Shown here in pieces: positions 4,431-28,436 of a DNA stretch of 64,000 nt (its first letter is position 1; every line of letters starts with the position of its first letter). This DNA is from Acidomonas methanolica (GTDB lineage: Bacteria; Pseudomonadota; Alphaproteobacteria; Acetobacterales; Acetobacteraceae), in NCBI RefSeq assembly GCF_004346035.1, contig NZ_SLZN01000001.1, forward strand, positions 62,001 to 126,000. The letters are read 5' to 3'. The notes under the pieces were generated by a model. That model was not told where the DNA came from, searched no databases, and saw nothing but the letters and a program-made list of their open reading frames with translations. The position numbers and the translations under genes are program-made.

Positions 4431-6253
4431 TGTGCGGGATCTGTGGCGTGGTCGGGACGCGCCCTGCGGCCCCGCTCATCTTCGAGGCGCTGCGGCGGCT
4501 CGAATATCGCGGCTATGATTCCGCCGGAATCGCCACGCTCGGCCCGCAGGGGATCGACCGGCGGCGCGCGGCGGGCAAGCTCGACAATCTGGAACGCGTC
4601 CTGCACGCCGCGCCGCTGGACGGCACGACGGGTATCGGCCACACGCGCTGGGCCACCCATGGCAGCCCGAACGAGACGAACGCCCATCCCCATGCGGTGG
4701 GCGGGGTGGCCGTCGTGCATAACGGCATCATCGAGAATTACGAGACCCTGCGCGAGGAGCTGAGCGCGGCGGGCCGCGTCTTCACTACCGAGACGGATAC
4801 GGAAACCGTCGCCCAGCTTGTCGATTCCCTGCTGGAACAGGGGCTTGCTCCGGAAGAAGCCGCCTTCCGCGCCCTGCGGCGTCTCGAAGGCGCCTATGCG
4901 CTGGCGATGATCTTCACCGGGCATGAAGGGTTGATGATCGGCGCGCGCCATGGCGCGCCGCTGGCGGTGGGGATCGGAGAAGGGGAGATGTTCCTTGGTT
5001 CGGACAGTCTCGCCCTCGCGCCGCTGGCGCGGAAGATCGCCTATCTCGAAGACGGCGACTGGTGCGTCCTGCGCCCGGGAGGAGTCGTTTTCCACGACGC
5101 GCGGGGCGAGGCGGTCGAGCGCCCGATCCAGACCGTCGCCCTGATCGGCGGCGCGGTCGGCAAGGACGGATATCGCCATTACATGGAGAAGGAACTGCAC
5201 GAGCATCCGGTCGTCATCGGCCAGACGCTTCAGCGCATCATCGACCCCGTGACGCGGCAGATCACGCTGCCGGACCTGCCCTTCGCCCTGGAGGAAATTC
5301 CGCGCGCCGTCATCACCGCCTGCGGCTCCGCGTTCTATGCGGGGCTGGTGGGACGGTACTGGCTGGAAGCGGAAGCGCGTTTGCCGGTGGATATCGATGT
5401 CGCGTCCGAGATGCGCTACCGCAATCCGCCGCTGAGCGAGGGCGGCCTCGGCCTGCTCATCTCGCAATCCGGCGAGACGGCGGACACGCTGGCGGCCCTG
5501 CGCGGCTTGCGGGCGGCGAAGCAGCACATCCTCTCCGTGCTGAATGTCGAGACCAGCACCATGGCGCGGGAGAGCGACGTGACGCTCGGCATGGTGGCCG
5601 GGCCGGAAATCTCGGTCGCCAGCACCAAGGCCTTCACAGCGCAGCTCTCCGTTCTCGCCGCGCTCACCATCGCCATCGGCCAGGCGCGCGGCGCCATCGG
5701 CCCGGCCCGCCAGCAGCATCTCATCGCGTGCCTGCTCGATCTTCCCTCCCGGGCGGCGGAGGTGTTCGGCCAGGACGAGGCCATCCGCGCCATGGCGCAG
5801 GTCATCGCGGAGGCGCGGGACGTGCTCTATCTCGGGCGCGGCATCTGCTTCCCCGTGGCGCTGGAAGGCGCGCTCAAGCTCAAGGAAATCTCTTACATCC
5901 ATGCCGAGGCCTATGCGGCTGGCGAAATGAAGCACGGCCCGATCTCGCTGATCGACCGCACCGTCCCCATCGTCGCCATCGCGCCCTCGACCATTCTCTT
6001 CGACAAGACCCTGTCGAATCTTCAGGAGGCCAAGGCCCGCGGCGGCCGCATCCTGGTGTTCACGGACGCTAAAGGCGCGGCGCGCCTGCGCGACCTGGCG
6101 GAGATCGTGGTGGTGGTGCCGGACGTGGACGCCTTTGTCACGCCGATCCTCTATACCATCCCGGTGCAGATCCTCGCCTATGAGGTTGCGCTTCTCAAGG
6201 GGACGGACGTGGACCAGCCGCGCAACCTCGCCAAATCGGTGACGGTGGAGTAA
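4430..6253 (+). CDS. glmS: glutamine-fructose-6-phosphate aminotransferase (isomerizing)
   Basis: First committed step of hexosamine synthesis: glutamine plus fructose-6-phosphate gives glucosamine-6-phosphate. The 607 residues start MCGICGVVG, so Cys2 becomes the N-terminal nucleophile of the glutaminase domain. Two SIS sugar-isomerase domains follow (SQSGETADT and the EGALKLKEISYIHAEAY region). The protein ends with the invariant AKSVTVE tail. It is coupled to glmU by a one-base stop/start overlap, so GlmS and GlmU supply the same pathway. No glmS ribozyme is expected or seen upstream, because the start abuts glmU. Confidence 0.97.
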   Translation: MCGICGVVGTRPAAPLIFEALRRLEYRGYDSAGIATLGPQGIDRRRAAGKLDNLERVLHAAPLDGTTGIGHTRWATHGSPNETNAHPHAVGGVAVVHNGIIENYETLREELSAAGRVFTTETDTETVAQLVDSLLEQGLAPEEAAFRALRRLEGAYALAMIFTGHEGLMIGARHGAPLAVGIGEGEMFLGSDSLALAPLARKIAYLEDGDWCVLRPGGVVFHDARGEAVERPIQTVALIGGAVGKDGYRHYMEKELHEHPVVIGQTLQRIIDPVTRQITLPDLPFALEEIPRAVITACGSAFYAGLVGRYWLEAEARLPVDIDVASEMRYRNPPLSEGGLGLLISQSGETADTLAALRGLRAAKQHILSVLNVETSTMARESDVTLGMVAGPEISVASTKAFTAQLSVLAALTIAIGQARGAIGPARQQHLIACLLDLPSRAAEVFGQDEAIRAMAQVIAEARDVLYLGRGICFPVALEGALKLKEISYIHAEAYAAGEMKHGPISLIDRTVPIVAIAPSTILFDKTLSNLQEAKARGGRILVFTDAKGAARLRDLAEIVVVVPDVDAFVTPILYTIPVQILAYEVALLKGTDVDQPRNLAKSVTVE

Positions 6254-23013: not shown

Positions 23014-23898
23014 CTATTCCACCACGATCCGCGCCCCGGCGATGCCACAGCCTCGCGCGCGCGCCAACTCCATATCGGCCTCCGGTACGGTTGCGAAGGG
23101 GCCGAGACGAACCTGCCAGTTCAATCCCGTCCCCGAATCCGTCACGGGCGAGACCCTGCCGCCGCACCGCAACGCCACCTGAGAGGCCGCTCCGTGGCCC
23201 GCGAAGCTTCCCAGCGTGATGGCATAAGAGACCGGCTGACTGAAGCCTTGAGTGACATTCGCGGGCAGCGGTTCAAGCCTCATCCCGCTCCGCGCCGCCT
23301 GCGCCGTTTCCTGCCGGCCGCCGACGAGGTGCCTGTCGCGTCCGGGAGGCGCGTCGAGCGACTCGGCCGTCACGTCGCCCCGCGGCGCGGCCGCGACATC
23401 GAGCTTCGGCGCATCGGGGCTCGATTCGGCAATCGCGCGGCTGGCCGCCTCGTCCACGACGAGTTCCACCGGCGCGGGCGCGTCGCCCCCGATTCCCAGC
23501 AGATCCGCGACCTTGGGGGTCACGGCCACGATCCGCCCCCTGGAGGACGGCCCGCGGTCATTGAGCCGGATTCGCACGGTCCGGCCATTCGTCAGATTGC
23601 GCAGCGTGACGATCGCGGGAAGCTGAAGCGTCTGATGCGCGCCGGTCATCGACTCGGCGGACCAGATCTCTCCATCCGTCGTGACATGCGGCCGCATGCG
23701 ATTCTCGCGCACCGCCAGACCTGTCTGGCGCAGGCTGAACGATTCCGACGGGTAGAACCACCCGTCGCTGCCCTGCCACGCGGAGCCGATGACGTAATGC
23801 GGGTGCGGCGGAGGCAAAGGCGGCGCGCTTTTCTGACACGATGTCAAAGCGAGCGGCGTCAGGGCCAGCGGCGCGAGATAGGGAAGAACGCGCCGCAT
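23014..23898 (-). CDS. rlpA: RlpA-like septal-ring lipoprotein with SPOR domain
   Basis: Predicted outer-membrane lipoprotein, a lytic transglycosylase that binds septal peptidoglycan. The ATG at 23898 (one base shared with the mltB stop) gives MRRVLPYLA and a lipobox LALTSC with the acceptor Cys near residue 20. Next come the WFYPSESFSLRQTGLAV block and the double-psi barrel with VRIRLNDRGP, where the Asp is the catalytic acid known in RlpA. A C-terminal SPOR repeat (SYAITLGSFAG and WQVRLGPFATVPEA) ends the protein. Length is 294 residues. Longer upstream extensions lack a signal peptide. Confidence 0.92.
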   Translation of the reverse strand: MRRVLPYLAPLALTPLALTSCQKSAPPLPPPHPHYVIGSAWQGSDGWFYPSESFSLRQTGLAVRENRMRPHVTTDGEIWSAESMTGAHQTLQLPAIVTLRNLTNGRTVRIRLNDRGPSSRGRIVAVTPKVADLLGIGGDAPAPVELVVDEAASRAIAESSPDAPKLDVAAAPRGDVTAESLDAPPGRDRHLVGGRQETAQAARSGMRLEPLPANVTQGFSQPVSYAITLGSFAGHGAASQVALRCGGRVSPVTDSGTGLNWQVRLGPFATVPEADMELARARGCGIAGARIVVE

Positions 23899-24869
23899 CA
23901 CGCCACCGCGTATCCAAGCAGCCCCACGCCGAGCGCGTAGAAATCCGACGGGTTGTAGCGGCGGATGACGTTGAAGTTCTGATAGACCATGAACGCGTCC
24001 GTTCCCGGCCCGTCCGGACGAATCAGCGCCCCACTCACATCCGGCCTCGAGAAAGGCTGCCCGTCCGCCCGTCGTACGCCGGCCGACATCCATTGCCCCA
24101 GCGTGCGTCGATGGTCGCGCCCCGTCTGGGATTGCGGCAACGAGACGGGAACCTGGACGGGCTGACCCCAGGGCTCGCCCTGCCGCCAGCCGCTTCGGGC
24201 GAGATAATTGGCGATCGAGGCGAAGACATCCGCCTTGCTGGTCCAGATGTCCCGGCGGCCGTCACCGTCCCCATCGACGGCGAAGCGCAGATAGGCGGAG
24301 GGCATGAATTGCGGCTGCCCCATCGCCCCTGCGTAGGAGCCCGTCATCCCTTCCGGGCTGATGTCGCGATGATCGAGAATGACCAGCGCCTTGAGGAGTT
24401 CGCTGCGGAAGAAGGCGCTCCGCCTGCCGTCATAGGCGAGCGTCGCCAGCGCGTCGATGACGGAAAAACCCCCGGTCGTCTTGCCGAACCCCGATTCAAG
24501 CCCCCAGATGCCGACGATGACGCGCGGATCGACGCCGTAACGCGTCTCTACCGACTCCAGCAGAGTGCTCTGCGCGGCGAACGCCTGCCGCCCGGTCTCG
24601 ATCCGGCTCGCCGGCAGGACACGCGCCCGGTATTGCGCCCAGGTCAGCGTGAATTCCGGCTGGTGCCGGTCGAGTTTCAGCACATGCGCGTTTGGTTCCC
24701 GCGTCAGCGCCAGCGCCTGCGAGACGATCTGCGGCGACAATCCCCGCGCGAGCGCCTCATCGCGGATGGAGGCAAGAAACGACGCATATCCTCCCGCGGC
24801 GAATGAAGCCCCGGATAACGGCGTGACTGCGACCGGAAGAGCAGCAAGCAGAGTGCGGCGAGTGAGCAT
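23898..24869 (-). CDS. mltB: lytic murein transglycosylase, MltB family
   Basis: Exported enzyme cutting peptidoglycan between MurNAc and GlcNAc. The 323 residues begin with a signal containing TRRTLLAALPVAV and an ASFA site. The catalytic glutamate lies in IVGIWGLESGFGK near residue 120. The AMGQPQFMPSAYLRFAVDGDGDGRRDIW block is the MltB hallmark (split here: AMGQPQFMPSAYL, then DGDGDGRRDIW). It heads the eight-gene minus-strand chain. Its SD is AGGA, eight bases before the ATG. The 12-bp repeat array sits about 60 bases upstream. Confidence 0.93.
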   Translation of the reverse strand: MLTRRTLLAALPVAVTPLSGASFAAGGYASFLASIRDEALARGLSPQIVSQALALTREPNAHVLKLDRHQPEFTLTWAQYRARVLPASRIETGRQAFAAQSTLLESVETRYGVDPRVIVGIWGLESGFGKTTGGFSVIDALATLAYDGRRSAFFRSELLKALVILDHRDISPEGMTGSYAGAMGQPQFMPSAYLRFAVDGDGDGRRDIWTSKADVFASIANYLARSGWRQGEPWGQPVQVPVSLPQSQTGRDHRRTLGQWMSAGVRRADGQPFSRPDVSGALIRPDGPGTDAFMVYQNFNVIRRYNPSDFYALGVGLLGYAVA

Positions 24870-25170
24870 CAAATATCCTGTATCCTGTCCCGCGATCGGG
24901 CCCGGTCCGATTTTAGAGTATCCGCTCGCCGGAGGGAATTCCGGAGGGAATTCCGGAGGGAATTCCGGAGGAAATTCCGGAGGAAATTATCGTATCGGAC
25001 GAAGAACTGCGTCCGGCCACCTCTATACTGCCCAAAAGCAAACAAAAAGTGAACGCCCTCGTCGCCGCCGCGCTGCGGTTTTGCGTTTCCCGCCGGTCAT
25101 GGCAAAGGGCATCCGTCATGGCTTTCACTTTGTCCTTCCCGCGGACGTCCTCGCAGGACTCCTTCCTTTC
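24870..25170. other. divergent control region between mltB and the dedA-like gene
   Basis: About 300 bases with no clear gene. It holds a five-copy 12-bp tandem repeat (24931-24990). On the minus strand GATACT near 24915-24920 could be the mltB -10. On the plus strand TATACT at 25024-25029 could be the -10 for the DedA gene, though no good -35 stands 17 bases before it. Part of this stretch stays open in the dedA-like frame, but an extended protein there has no recognisable content. Confidence 0.55.
24931..24990. repeat. 12-bp tandem repeat, five copies
   Basis: Units: GGAGGGAATTCC three times, then GGAGGAAATTCC, then GGAGGAAATTAT. The first three are identical and the last two drift, giving a polar decay to the right. 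Each full unit contains the self-complementary GGAATTCC or a close variant, so both strands look alike. The unit length is a multiple of three. It lies in the divergent gap between mltB and the dedA-like gene. Confidence 0.95.
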
Positions 25171-25785
25171 ATGCCTTTCAGGCTCTCCAAGCGCATGAGC
25201 GCCCTGTGGACGACGATCCGCGTTACGATCGAAGCTTCGTGGACCTCCGCCGCGTGGTGGCTCAAGGCATTCTGGATCATTCTCGGCACCTTCGTCCTGG
25301 AGGACGCCACCACCATCCTGGCCGCGATGGCCAGCGCGCAAGGCCGCCTCGCCGTTCCCCTGGCTCTCGGCGCGCTCTATGTCGGTGTCGCGGCCGGAGA
25401 CTGCCTGCTCTACGCAATGGGGGCGCTCGGAAAGCACTGGCACTTTTGGCGGCGATTTCTTACATTGCCGAAACACGAACACGGGCATAAGTGGTTCGTC
25501 CGCAACGTGGTGCGCGTGGTGGTGGTCAGCCGGTTCATTCCCGGCGCACGCCTGCCGCTCTATACGGCGGCAGGTTTTTTTGCCGCCCCGTTCAAGGCTT
25601 TCGCGTTGAGCGCGGTAAGTGCGACGCTGGTCTGGACGTCGCTCCTCTTCGGCGTGTCCCTGCATGTCGGAACCTGGATGAACGCACACCTGGCCGAATG
25701 GCGCTGGGTCGGGATGATCGGATTCATGGCAACGATACTTTTCGTCGGGCGCGTGATCGCGCGATTCCAGACCTATAGCGACTGA
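25171..25785 (+). CDS. DedA/VTT-domain inner-membrane protein
   Basis: Predicted polytopic membrane protein (about 204 residues) of the DedA/SNARE-associated superfamily, some members of which act as lipid (undecaprenyl-phosphate or phospholipid) transporters. The membrane helices read ILGTFVLEDATTILAAM, LALGALYVGVAAGDCLL, and the terminal GMIGFMATILFVG. The family signature is VVSRFIPGARLPLYTAAGFF. The start is uncertain: ATG 25171 is taken here, with ATG 25195 and 25099 possible. A TGA two bases before the next ATG ties it to the ATP-grasp gene downstream. Confidence 0.82.
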   Translation: MPFRLSKRMSALWTTIRVTIEASWTSAAWWLKAFWIILGTFVLEDATTILAAMASAQGRLAVPLALGALYVGVAAGDCLLYAMGALGKHWHFWRRFLTLPKHEHGHKWFVRNVVRVVVVSRFIPGARLPLYTAAGFFAAPFKAFALSAVSATLVWTSLLFGVSLHVGTWMNAHLAEWRWVGMIGFMATILFVGRVIARFQTYSD

Positions 25786-25787
25786 GC

Positions 25788-26921
25788 ATGCTGCTGCAAC
25801 GCCTCGATCCGGCCGCACCGTCCCACGACATGGCGTCCGAGGATTTCCTGTCCGGCGATCTGCTGTCCCGCCTGCCCCCCGCCGGGGCGCCGATCTCGTT
25901 TTTCGAGTTCTGGCCCGGCTGGCTCTTCTATACGCCCATCGTGCTGTACTGGATCGCCATGGGGCTCAGGCACGGCGACCTGAGCCTGCCGACGGCCGCC
26001 AATCCGCGGATCGAGACCGGCGGCCTCTGCGGCGAAAGCAAGAGCGGCATTCTCGACATGGCCGGCCCGCTCGCCCGGCGCTGGATCGCGCCGTACGCGA
26101 CCTTCATGTCCGGCAACGCGGAAGCGGCGTTCGCGGCCATGACGGAGGCCGGGCTGTCATTCCCCGTCGTGATCAAGCCGGACATCGGCTGCAACGGCAC
26201 GGGCGTCAAGAAGGTCGATGACGCCACCTCCCTGCGGTCCGTCGTCGAATCCTTTCCGTCGCACACGCGGCTTCTGGTGCAGGAACTGATCGACATGCCC
26301 GTCGAGGGCGGCATCTTCTGGATGCGGGAGCCAGGTCAGCCGCGCGGACGCATCAGCTCGATCACCTACAAGGAAGTCCCGACCCTGATCGGCGACGGGG
26401 TGGCGACGATCGAGGATCTCGTCCGCCGCGACCGCCGCACGGGCCGGATTCCGGACCTCTATCTGCCGCGTCTGAAACGTCGTCTGCATGAGAGTCCCGC
26501 CGCCGGCGAGCGCGTGCCGCTCGTCTTCGCGGGCAATCACTGCAAGGGCTCGATCTTCCATGACGGCCGCCGCGATGTCACGGACGCCCTCTCCCGGCGG
26601 CTCGACGACATCCTGAGCGACGTGCCCGAATTCCATTTCGGCCGGATCGACCTGAAGGCCCGCTCCGTCAGTGCCCTGCGCAAGGGCGAGGACTTCCGCA
26701 TCATCGAGATCAACGGCGTCGGTTCCGAGGCGACCCATATCTGGGACGGGCATACCACCCTGTACGAGGCGTATCGCGCTCAGTTCGAACATTACGGCGC
26801 GGCGTTCCGGATCGCCGCCGCCAATCGCGCGCGCGGCTGGAAAAGCGCCGGCGCCTGGTCGCTCCTGCGGGCCTGGCGGCGACAGAAGCGCCTGATGCGC
26901 GCCTATCCTCTGAACGACTGA
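25788..26921 (+). CDS. ATP-grasp domain protein, substrate unknown
   Basis: A 377-residue protein with a C-terminal ATP-grasp fold, related to D-Ala-D-Ala ligase-type carboxylate-amine ligases. Visible elements are FPVVIKPDIGCNGTGVKKV (nucleotide lysine and glycine-rich loop, near residues 123-142), LLVQELI, and the metal-binding end FRIIEINGVGSEATHIWD. The N-terminal part has an aromatic, hydrophobic segment (FEFWPGWLFYTPIVLYWIAM) and NPRIETGGLCGESKSGIL, which I recall as conserved in this uncharacterised family. It begins two bases after the DedA-like stop, so the two are likely co-translated. The reaction is not known. Confidence 0.8.
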   Translation: MLLQRLDPAAPSHDMASEDFLSGDLLSRLPPAGAPISFFEFWPGWLFYTPIVLYWIAMGLRHGDLSLPTAANPRIETGGLCGESKSGILDMAGPLARRWIAPYATFMSGNAEAAFAAMTEAGLSFPVVIKPDIGCNGTGVKKVDDATSLRSVVESFPSHTRLLVQELIDMPVEGGIFWMREPGQPRGRISSITYKEVPTLIGDGVATIEDLVRRDRRTGRIPDLYLPRLKRRLHESPAAGERVPLVFAGNHCKGSIFHDGRRDVTDALSRRLDDILSDVPEFHFGRIDLKARSVSALRKGEDFRIIEINGVGSEATHIWDGHTTLYEAYRAQFEHYGAAFRIAAANRARGWKSAGAWSLLRAWRRQKRLMRAYPLND

Positions 26922-26955: not shown

Positions 26956-27423
26956 TCAGCCGCCCCCCACGCCGCCCAGACCGCTGCCGAAAATATAGTT
27001 GCTGACCTGCTGCTCCAGCGAAACCGCGTCCCGCGTATCGGTGATCGTTGCACCCGGCGGCAGGATCTCGCGCGCCTTGCCGGGCGTGAGCGTGAGCGTG
27101 TCGTCCGACGTCATGTCCGGCGCGGCGATTCCGGCGACCGTATCACGCGGCAAGCGCAGCGACGGGTTGACGGTGAAATCCACGATCGCCACCTCCGCTT
27201 TCGGGTCGAGCCTGATGCTCTGGATCTGCCCGACCGTCACACCCGCGATATTGACCTTCCCGCCGCCCACCAGACCGTTGGCGGAAAGGAACTGGGCATG
27301 CATCAGCACGCCGTCAGGCGCGATGCCGTGACGCTGGTGCCGCGCATACAGGCCGAATCCGAACGCCACGACAAGCACGAGCGCGCTCGCCAGCGTCGAT
27401 CCTCCGCGTGTCGGTGTCGCCAT
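26956..27423 (-). CDS. MlaD/MCE-domain protein, single domain
   Basis: A 155-residue protein with one N-terminal membrane anchor (LASALVLVVAFGFGLYA) and one MCE domain, the fold of MlaD that carries lipids between inner and outer membranes. The domain reads FLSANGLVGGGKVNIAGVTVGQIQSI, then DPKAEVAIVDFTV and DTLTLTPG. The ATG at 27423 is used because GAGAG lies just upstream and the product begins MATPTRGG. No mlaE, mlaF, mlaB or mlaC partner is adjacent, which is unusual. It converges on the ATP-grasp gene and diverges from uppP. Confidence 0.85.
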   Translation of the reverse strand: MATPTRGGSTLASALVLVVAFGFGLYARHQRHGIAPDGVLMHAQFLSANGLVGGGKVNIAGVTVGQIQSIRLDPKAEVAIVDFTVNPSLRLPRDTVAGIAAPDMTSDDTLTLTPGKAREILPPGATITDTRDAVSLEQQVSNYIFGSGLGGVGGG

Positions 27424-27509
27424 GCTCTCTTCGCTCCATCCCTGCTTTCCGCTCTTCGCCCGGCGCGCGGTCCCGGTCAAGCAGCGAAGCTGTCACACAT
27501 AAGATGACG

Positions 27510-27593: not shown

Positions 27594-28436
27594 ATGACTT
27601 TTCTTCAGGCCATCCTGCTTGCCGTCATCCAGGGCATCACCGAACTCTTTCCGATCAGTAGTCTCGGCCATGCCGTTCTGGTCCCCGCGCTGCTCCACTG
27701 GAACGTCGATGAACACGGCGATCTGTTCCTGCCGTTCCTCACCATGTTGCATTTCGGAACCTTCGTGGCGCTGCTGCTGGTCTTCGCGGGAGACTGGCTG
27801 GCGATCGCGACCGGCGTGCTCGGACGGCGCGGCCCCGCGCGACAGGAAGAGGCGATTCGCATCCTCGTCCTGCTCGTGGTCGCGACAGTGCCGCTCGTGC
27901 TCGTCGGAGGGCTGTTCGAGCATCGCCTGCGCGCCTTCTTCGGCGCGCCGCTGATGGTCGCGGGGTTCCTCGTCCTCAACGGCGTGCTGCTCATCGCGAC
28001 CGAGTGGCTGCGCAACCACAGGGGCAGGCAACCGCATCGCTCCATCGCGGACATGTCCGTCGCGGATGCGGCGGTGATCGGCCTCTGGCAATGTCTTGCC
28101 TTCCTGCCGGGCATTTCCCGTTCGGGCGCGACGATCAATGGCGGCCTGCTGCGCGGCCTCGATCACGAGACCTCGGCCCGCTTCTCGTTCCTTCTCGCCC
28201 AGCCCGCCATTCTCGCGGCAGCCACACATGAAGCCTTCCAGCTTCGTCATACCGCCATTTCGCATGCCGTGCTGGTGCAGTCGGCCGTCGCCGCCGTCAT
28301 CGCCGGCATCACCGCGCTGATCAGCACGCTGGTCCTGCTGCGCTACTTCCGCAATCACGACAACTGGGCGCTCTCGCCTTTCGCCTTCTACTGCATCGGC
28401 GCGGGAATCGTTTCGGCAGTGTTGCTGTTTGTGTGA
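27594..28436 (+). CDS. uppP: undecaprenyl-diphosphatase
   Basis: Membrane enzyme (BacA family) that recycles undecaprenyl diphosphate to the monophosphate carrier used for peptidoglycan and O-antigen; overexpression is linked to bacitracin resistance. The 280 residues form about eight membrane helices. The two active-site motifs are present: QGITELFPISSLGH near residue 15 and FLPGISRSGATINGG near residue 170. The ATG is preceded by GGAG at six bases. No regulator lies beside it. Confidence 0.95.
   Translation: MTFLQAILLAVIQGITELFPISSLGHAVLVPALLHWNVDEHGDLFLPFLTMLHFGTFVALLLVFAGDWLAIATGVLGRRGPARQEEAIRILVLLVVATVPLVLVGGLFEHRLRAFFGAPLMVAGFLVLNGVLLIATEWLRNHRGRQPHRSIADMSVADAAVIGLWQCLAFLPGISRSGATINGGLLRGLDHETSARFSFLLAQPAILAAATHEAFQLRHTAISHAVLVQSAVAAVIAGITALISTLVLLRYFRNHDNWALSPFAFYCIGAGIVSAVLLFV

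Follow-up and report, generated by a model that had tools for sequence, protein, structure and literature searches.

The gene pair in the window and its conservation

In the window, the 64,000-nucleotide stretch of Acidomonas methanolica DNA analysed here (G000:C1:62001-126000, from a genome of 3.68 Mb), a gene for an integral membrane protein of the VTT/DedA superfamily is followed by a gene for an ATP-grasp ligase (Table 1). As stated in the initial annotation, the two genes are separated by two bases: the dinucleotide GC lies between the DedA stop codon (25783-25785) and the ligase ATG at 25788 on the same strand. The start codons of the pair are not fixed; ligase residues 1-32 have a predicted local distance difference test score (pLDDT) of <50 in the structure model, and most homolog matches start at residues 24-36.

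In 47 of 120 genomes of the window's family the ligase was found, at 53 places in all; the best 30 of these places were taken as loci. When genome contigs were scanned, 61 of 80 pattern-matching stretches were confirmed as ligase loci. The 135 loci with the ligase, which are best matches and not a random draw, represent 116 distinct ligases as judged by their last 250 residues. The term family group is used here for Acetobacteraceae and Acidocellaceae together with about 14 metagenome-assembled genomes (MAGs) that are named only to class or phylum and carry ligases 48-57% identical to that of the window, whereas the ligases of loci outside this group were 37-44% identical to it in the contig scan. 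For 104 of the 116 distinct ligases a DedA gene lies directly upstream on the same strand or is fused to the ligase gene, and the pairing is not chance; one locus (L032) starts at a contig end, which leaves the presence of DedA undecidable. The membrane-linked unit suggested by the initial annotation is thus conserved as a pair, in related genomes as well.

A fused form, which the initial annotation had suggested looking for, exists at two loci. In a Desulfobulbaceae MAG (L081), one open frame of 558 codons from position 5383, with a likely start at 5419, encodes a DedA part followed by a ligase part, and a second fusion of 574 amino acids is encoded in a genome of the window's phylum (L113). 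In the ligase tree (39 rows, midpoint root, with support from the Shimodaira-Hasegawa-like approximate likelihood ratio test only), the L081 fusion belongs to a 12-row set with a support of 97 and the L113 fusion to a five-row set with a support of 98; the two are not sisters, which suggests that they arose separately. The window's ligase groups with two Gluconobacter rows in a supported set of seven rows (97). Within the phylum of L081 the ligase was found in one of 198 genomes, the L081 genome itself. A structure model of a fusion protein has a pLDDT of 87.7 and a modest predicted template modelling score (pTM) of 0.68.

Part of the family retains the gene order MltB - DedA - ligase - MlaD - UppP, including all ten fetched loci of the Gluconobacter genus. 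The MltB, MlaD and UppP flanks were not found in Acidocella-type loci, in which the pair is still present, and the pair has therefore been kept through changes of neighbourhood. The DedA stop codon shares the sequence ATGA with the start codon of the ligase at all 13 Acidocella-type loci inspected, and also at L114. The window neighbourhood also includes RlpA and a PBP5-like carboxypeptidase (Pfam scan). Upstream of the DedA gene, positions 24931-24990 hold five tandem 12-base units, namely three GGAGGGAATTCC, one GGAGGAAATTCC and one imperfect copy.

Table 1. Features at and around the DedA-ligase pair, in window positions
Feature	Position	Strand	Size, evidence and remarks
VTT/DedA-superfamily integral membrane protein	25171-25785	+	204 aa from annotated start; Pfam VTT_dom
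ATP-grasp ligase	25788-26921	+	377 aa; Pfam RimK-like ATP-grasp
Hydrophobic N-terminal helix of ligase (residues 40-62, EFWPGWLFYTPIVLYW type)	25905-25973	+	alignments, hydropathy, model; proposed membrane-surface contact
MltB-like lytic transglycosylase	23898-24872	-	Pfam SLT_2, 370 bits; synteny; flank kept in part of family
MlaD/MCE-domain protein	26956-27480	-	Pfam MlaD, 57.8 bits; synteny; flank kept in part of family
UppP/BacA undecaprenyl-diphosphate phosphatase	27594-28436	+	NCBIfam NF001397, 407 bits (cut-off 363); synteny; flank kept in part of family

Domains, fold and conserved residues

The ligase belongs to the ATP-grasp superfamily by both profile and fold. It passes the Pfam RimK-like ATP-grasp model (23.6 bits, cut-off 21) and stays under that of Dala_Dala_lig_C (15.6 bits, cut-off 24). 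Scans of both pair proteins against NCBIfam returned only matches below the cut-offs, which for the ligase were the D-Ala-D-Ala ligase TIGR01205 (14.5 bits, cut-off 245.65), the rimK_fam TIGR00768 (32.4 bits, cut-off 143.4) and LysX (21 bits, cut-off 276). The ligase is outside every named NCBIfam family, including those of known substrate, and on the family cut-offs D-Ala-D-Ala ligase and RimK proper were rejected as its identity. The structure model, built with 37 sequences (pLDDT 89.9, pTM 0.86), gave as its best structural match the cyanophycin synthetase 7wae (Z 16.6, root-mean-square deviation 4.4, 265 residues aligned, 17% identity), with LysX/ArgX 5k2m (Z 14.7), Ddl (13.3) and RimK (13.2) lower; matches within 1 Z were counted as tied, and glutathione and carbamoyl-phosphate synthetases fall among them. 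The modelled fold thus appears nearest to ATP-grasp ligases that form peptide bonds, and the D-Ala-D-Ala ligase type named in the initial annotation is not supported at family level, as the protein is under both sets of cut-offs and cyanophycin synthetases and LysX/ArgX score above Ddl structurally. ATP-grasp relatives couple a carboxylate and an amine via an acyl phosphate. Residues K130, R286, D288, E307 and N309 are invariant in the 37 aligned sequences, and we take them to match the DdlB residues for ATP, phosphate and metal.

The hydrophobic N-terminal segment of the ligase, also pointed out in the initial annotation, exists but is too weak for a classical transmembrane helix. Residues 42-60 have a Kyte-Doolittle mean of 1.11, less than the 1.29 of residues 111-129, and residues 44-62 form a confident helix in the model. 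In 29 of the 37 ligase rows the N-terminal part is at its most hydrophobic near residues 42-60, and this region aligns with the N-terminal part of other ATP-grasp enzymes. The N-terminal helix, together with the short linker to the membrane domain in the L081 fusion, suits a lipid substrate at the membrane surface.

The DedA protein passes the Pfam VTT_dom cut-off (38.9 bits, cut-off 33.9). Its best NCBIfam match, UptA, does not reach the equivalog cut-off (29.4 bits against 250). Acidic (LED) and arginine (RF-PG-R) motifs are important in DedA proteins; the LED and SRF-PG-R motifs are present in the window protein and common to most of 17 others, with partial departures at L112, L113 and L083 among the 18 aligned sequences. 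To our knowledge, most members of the DedA superfamily have no assigned cargo.

Linkage to OlsF-type genes and co-occurrence with OlsB-like genes

Outside the family group, the clusters encode a protein of 579-620 amino acids that combines a PlsC-like acyltransferase part with a GNAT part (PF13444); in all four proteins scanned, both parts score above the Pfam cut-offs. Its best NCBIfam model is OlsF, the bifunctional ornithine lipid synthase (NF052615), at 405-435 bits, under the canonical cut-off of 620 bits. An OlsF-type gene lies within the cluster at 16 of 18 loci: six of seven named loci (L077, L078, L080, L081, L084 and L086, but not L083), nine of ten loci fetched from the phylum (L113-L121, but not L112), and G370, counted by position, where the ligase and OlsF share a contig at a distance of 2.3 kb. 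At L086 both OlsF and ligase are in a broken frame of a draft genome. Most gammaproteobacterial clusters have the order DedA - ligase - DinB - TANGO2/NRDE - YHS - (DoxX-like) - OlsF; DinB, TANGO2/NRDE, YHS and sometimes DoxX-like genes lie between ligase and OlsF at L114-L120 and L077. In Grimontia celer the cluster comprises the pair together with OlsF. A common third gene, which the initial annotation had proposed to look for, is therefore present, and of its suggestion of a superfamily implicated in lipid-carrier transport the VTT domain stands, whereas the third gene points to acylated amino-acid lipids of the ornithine type and not to lipid carriers of the undecaprenyl phosphate kind.

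The ligase is present in 14 of 398 sampled phylum genomes, 11 of these outside the window's family, and the OlsF model matches 85 of the sampled genomes at E 1e-60, with 72 over the cut-off; these counts may be low, as only part of the first-look candidates was scored. When divergent OlsF is defined as 396-435 bits, a band set after the scores were known and excluding three matches at 308-346 bits, the ligase occurs in ten of 17 divergent-OlsF genomes and in one of 375 others among the 392 phylum genomes outside the family (Fisher p 1e-14, without correction for kinship). In keeping with this association, at the divergent-OlsF loci of the seven genomes without the ligase no DedA, ligase, DinB, TANGO2 or YHS gene was found within about 8 kb on each side (less for L164). 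Four of the ten genomes with ligase and divergent OlsF (G148, G276, G406 and G501) carry a canonical OlsF elsewhere, and the cluster there thus has its own synthase. The excluded matches form a third, more divergent OlsF-like group (G126, G385 and G334), each genome also having canonical OlsF.

Vibrio cholerae has two OlsF homologs, with 33 and 30% identity to that of Serratia, and each is reported to yield ornithine lipid in E. coli; one of the two, encoded at the end of a putative four-gene operon, has its own promoter, from which low salt induces it (PMC12186959). By analogy the cluster OlsF may yield ornithine lipid too, its divergence seeming similar to that of the V. cholerae homologs. 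In V. cholerae, ornithine label was also seen at the origin of the thin-layer chromatogram besides ornithine lipid, according to the available legend of Fig. 3 (PMC12186959); a more polar ornithine derivative is one possible cause among others.

Inside the family group the relation is one of co-occurrence. A gene for a PF13444 (OlsB-like) acyltransferase was found in 46 of the 47 ligase-bearing family genomes, which is weak evidence because PF13444 is present in 117 of the 120 family genomes anyway. The only case noticed in the family of such a gene near the ligase is a second, weak PF13444 match of 46 bits (G054:C9:266945-267220), which shares its contig with the ligase at a distance of about 8 kb.

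In cerilipin, a lipid of ornithine and taurine, the taurine sits on the ornithine carboxyl. Available passages state that Gluconobacter cerinus makes this lipid, which Tahara described in 1976 (PMC12493201, PMC4484230, PMC6669457, PMC10191378, PMC4929514), and one lists 'taurine transfer' among ornithine-lipid modifications, with no gene named (PMC12493201). In the passages and listings of the open-access literature searched, those on ATP-grasp with DedA operons included, no gene was tied to cerilipin or an ornithine-taurine lipid; DedA with ornithine lipid gave nothing, ornithine lipid with ATP-grasp gave one reference-list match only, and the listings on ornithine lipid with flippase and on Acidiphilium with taurine lipids held nothing on the pair. 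The Gluconobacter genus was located via the alcohol dehydrogenase (AdhA) chain of PDB entry 8gy2, which is 100% identical over 381 residues in G872 and which we take to be from G. oxydans. The ligase is present in all 26 genomes of the genus marked in this way, G. cerinus itself not being singled out by name; in G995 and G996 the ligase shows one internal TGA. In one of the 26 (G983:C1:30949-31993) the ligase is in two pieces with stop codons, possibly a natural loss. An aminolipid described as unknown, with no structure given in the available text, has been reported from Acidisoma silvae and A. cellulosilytica (PMC8537097), and the genomes of both have the ligase (L046, L082).

Proposed pathway and alternatives

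Starting from the observed pair, its fusions, the OlsF linkage outside the family group and the invariant ATP-grasp residues, we propose, with a probability of roughly 0.6, that the two proteins serve to modify, and then to export, an acyloxyacyl amino-acid lipid of the ornithine-lipid type, an estimate that covers the synthase, ligase and DedA steps jointly and in outline. The synthesis of acylated amino-acid lipids by OlsB/OlsA or by OlsF is known chemistry. OlsB and OlsA in the window's family, or the divergent OlsF in other proteobacteria, would make an N-acylated amino-acid lipid at the cytoplasmic face, and this lipid is the predicted ligase substrate. The ATP-grasp enzyme would use ATP to phosphorylate the free carboxylate in the head group of this lipid, and a small amine would attack to give an amide, a step suggested by the fold, the conserved residues and the gene linkage. 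Finally, the DedA protein, adjoining or fused to the ligase, would move the enlarged lipid to the outer leaflet as a transporter or scramblase, as its superfamily, the pairing and the fusions suggest. The link of the ligase to the ornithine-lipid pathway, as a putative added step, takes the form of genetic linkage outside the family group and of co-occurrence inside it.

In Gluconobacter the coupled amine might be taurine, a guess from cerilipin. The taurine amide of this lipid needs a carboxylate-amine ligation, which is the chemistry of the ligase's fold. A more specific version of the proposal, which is put forward tentatively and which we consider somewhat doubtful, is that the ligase joins taurine or a taurine-like amine (hypotaurine, β-alanine) to the ornithine-lipid carboxyl and would be the missing taurine ligase of the cerilipin type, with its DedA partner as a dedicated transporter.

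At one locus of the 18 a gene for the supply of an amine may be present. The L081 fusion is immediately followed by a gene for a group II pyridoxal phosphate (PLP) decarboxylase (Pyridoxal_deC, 245 bits). Among proteins of solved structure it is best matched by cysteine sulfinic acid decarboxylase (CSAD; 6e-74), glutamate decarboxylase (GAD) 1 (2e-73), GADL1 (2e-71) and glutamate decarboxylase 2 (3e-71), these leading the diaminobutyrate and aromatic types by at least 88 bits. Its best NCBIfam model is diaminobutyrate decarboxylase, at 194 bits against a cut-off of 900, and no CSAD model was returned. CSAD/GAD-type enzymes produce hypotaurine or taurine, γ-aminobutyric acid or β-alanine. Relatives of this decarboxylase (E <= 1e-30) occur in 44 of the 120 family genomes. 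They were found in 30 of the 47 genomes that have the ligase and in 14 of the 73 that do not (odds ratio 7.4, p 1e-6, without correction for kinship). The family decarboxylases were rejected as a source of taurine and are not counted as support: they are only 26-33% identical to that of L081, and the one in the window genome is closest to an unnamed PLP decarboxylase and to DOPA and tyrosine decarboxylases, not to CSAD. The sole genome of the Gluconobacter genus in the 120-genome sample (G053) is not among the 44.

Several observations weigh against the proposed lipid pathway. Among L001-L091, the members of the family group showed neither an OlsF- nor an OlsB-like gene at the ligase locus within the flanks viewed (1.5 to 6 kb, or less where a contig ended), OlsF queries matching only the six named loci given above. 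The near-universal PF13444 also stands beside a patchy ligase (47 of 120), so that the ligase step would have to be optional, and one 93% complete genome (G080) has the ligase and lacks PF13444; the family pattern is compatible with, and no proof of, the ligase as an optional modifying step. Outside the family group, seven genomes have divergent OlsF without the ligase. At L112 (G421) the pair is present, but OlsF was found neither in the cluster nor, at E 1e-60, in the rest of the genome, and none was seen on the 8.3 kb contig of L083. The DinB, TANGO2, YHS and DoxX-like genes have no explanation in the pathway. Lastly, DedA is missing beside 11 ligases with room to show one. At two of these (L084 and L121) OlsF adjoins the ligase, and the transporter is therefore not obligatory; L125-L128 form one divergent DedA-less clade, three of them being second or third copies, L123, L124 and L131 form another, two of them being extra copies, and L025 and L054 are two further cases. 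As an observation in its own right, at L126 (1212-3567) a divergent ligase paralog without DedA is immediately preceded by a DUF1989 gene (198 bits). This DUF1989 gene overlaps a YqcI/YcgG gene (166 bits) on its upstream side, an arrangement that hints at a different conjugate.

One alternative is that the ligase acts before acylation and forms a soluble dipeptide-like head group, for example ornithine with a second amine, that OlsB or OlsF would then acylate. Similar ATP-grasp enzymes do use soluble substrates, and the same genes would lead to the same final lipid; however, the fusions to a membrane protein (L081 and L113) and the hydrophobic N-terminal helix favour a membrane substrate, and in E. 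coli, with no ligase present, the OlsF homologs of V. cholerae are reported to yield plain ornithine lipid (PMC12186959), and we judge this order of steps unlikely.

A role of the pair in envelope-carrier metabolism, in which DedA would move undecaprenyl phosphate and the ligase would modify peptidoglycan or a carrier-linked intermediate, is suggested by the MltB, MlaD and UppP flanks conserved in the loci of acetic acid bacteria and by UptA as the best, although distant, NCBIfam match of DedA. In the Acidocella-type loci, which retain the pair, none of these flanks was found, matches to MltB, RlpA, MlaD and UppP occur at none of the 17 probed loci outside the family group, whereas OlsF occurs at 15 of them, and the ligase is under the D-Ala-D-Ala ligase cut-offs. 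An envelope or peptidoglycan role was therefore set aside as the principal explanation, the probed flanks being kept only in part of the family group and the pair occurring elsewhere with OlsF, and we regard it as rather improbable. Least probable of all is that the lipid is the amine partner, its side-chain amine being acylated with a free amino acid or dicarboxylate in the way that RimK- and LysX-type enzymes attach a free amino acid to a larger partner and as the common aminoacyl-lipids such as lysyl-phosphatidylglycerol might suggest, since the taurine of cerilipin is on the ornithine carboxyl group and the decarboxylase beside the L081 fusion would give an amine, not an acid.

The proposed lipid-modifying pair can be set beside several known systems. 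The ATP-grasp part of cyanophycin synthetase shares its fold with the ligase and forms amides from carboxylate and amine with ATP, but that enzyme has 877 residues against 377, and only the ligase has the hydrophobic N-terminal helix and DedA or OlsF partner genes. RimK, LysX and ArgX have the Pfam RimK domain and the fold in common with the ligase, which is far from their NCBIfam cut-offs. OlsC, OlsD, OlsE and OlsG tune the head group or acyl chain of ornithine lipids, as the ligase would; they are hydroxylases and methyltransferases, whereas an ATP-dependent ligase and a membrane protein would act here. With the UptA-type DedA/VTT lipid transporters the DedA protein shares the VTT domain, but its partner genes suggest an amino-acid lipid.

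Ornithine lipids are widespread phosphorus-free bacterial lipids. If the proposal is correct, the pair would supply a gene for the taurine step of an ornithine-taurine lipid, which could then be tested in a tractable member of the acetic acid bacteria, and would assign a cargo to a protein of the DedA family; we know of no earlier ATP-grasp ligase acting on a lipid head group and of no earlier DedA protein dedicated to a phosphorus-free lipid. Should the amine indeed be taurine, a zwitterionic ornithine lipid would be turned into a sulfonate-bearing lipid.

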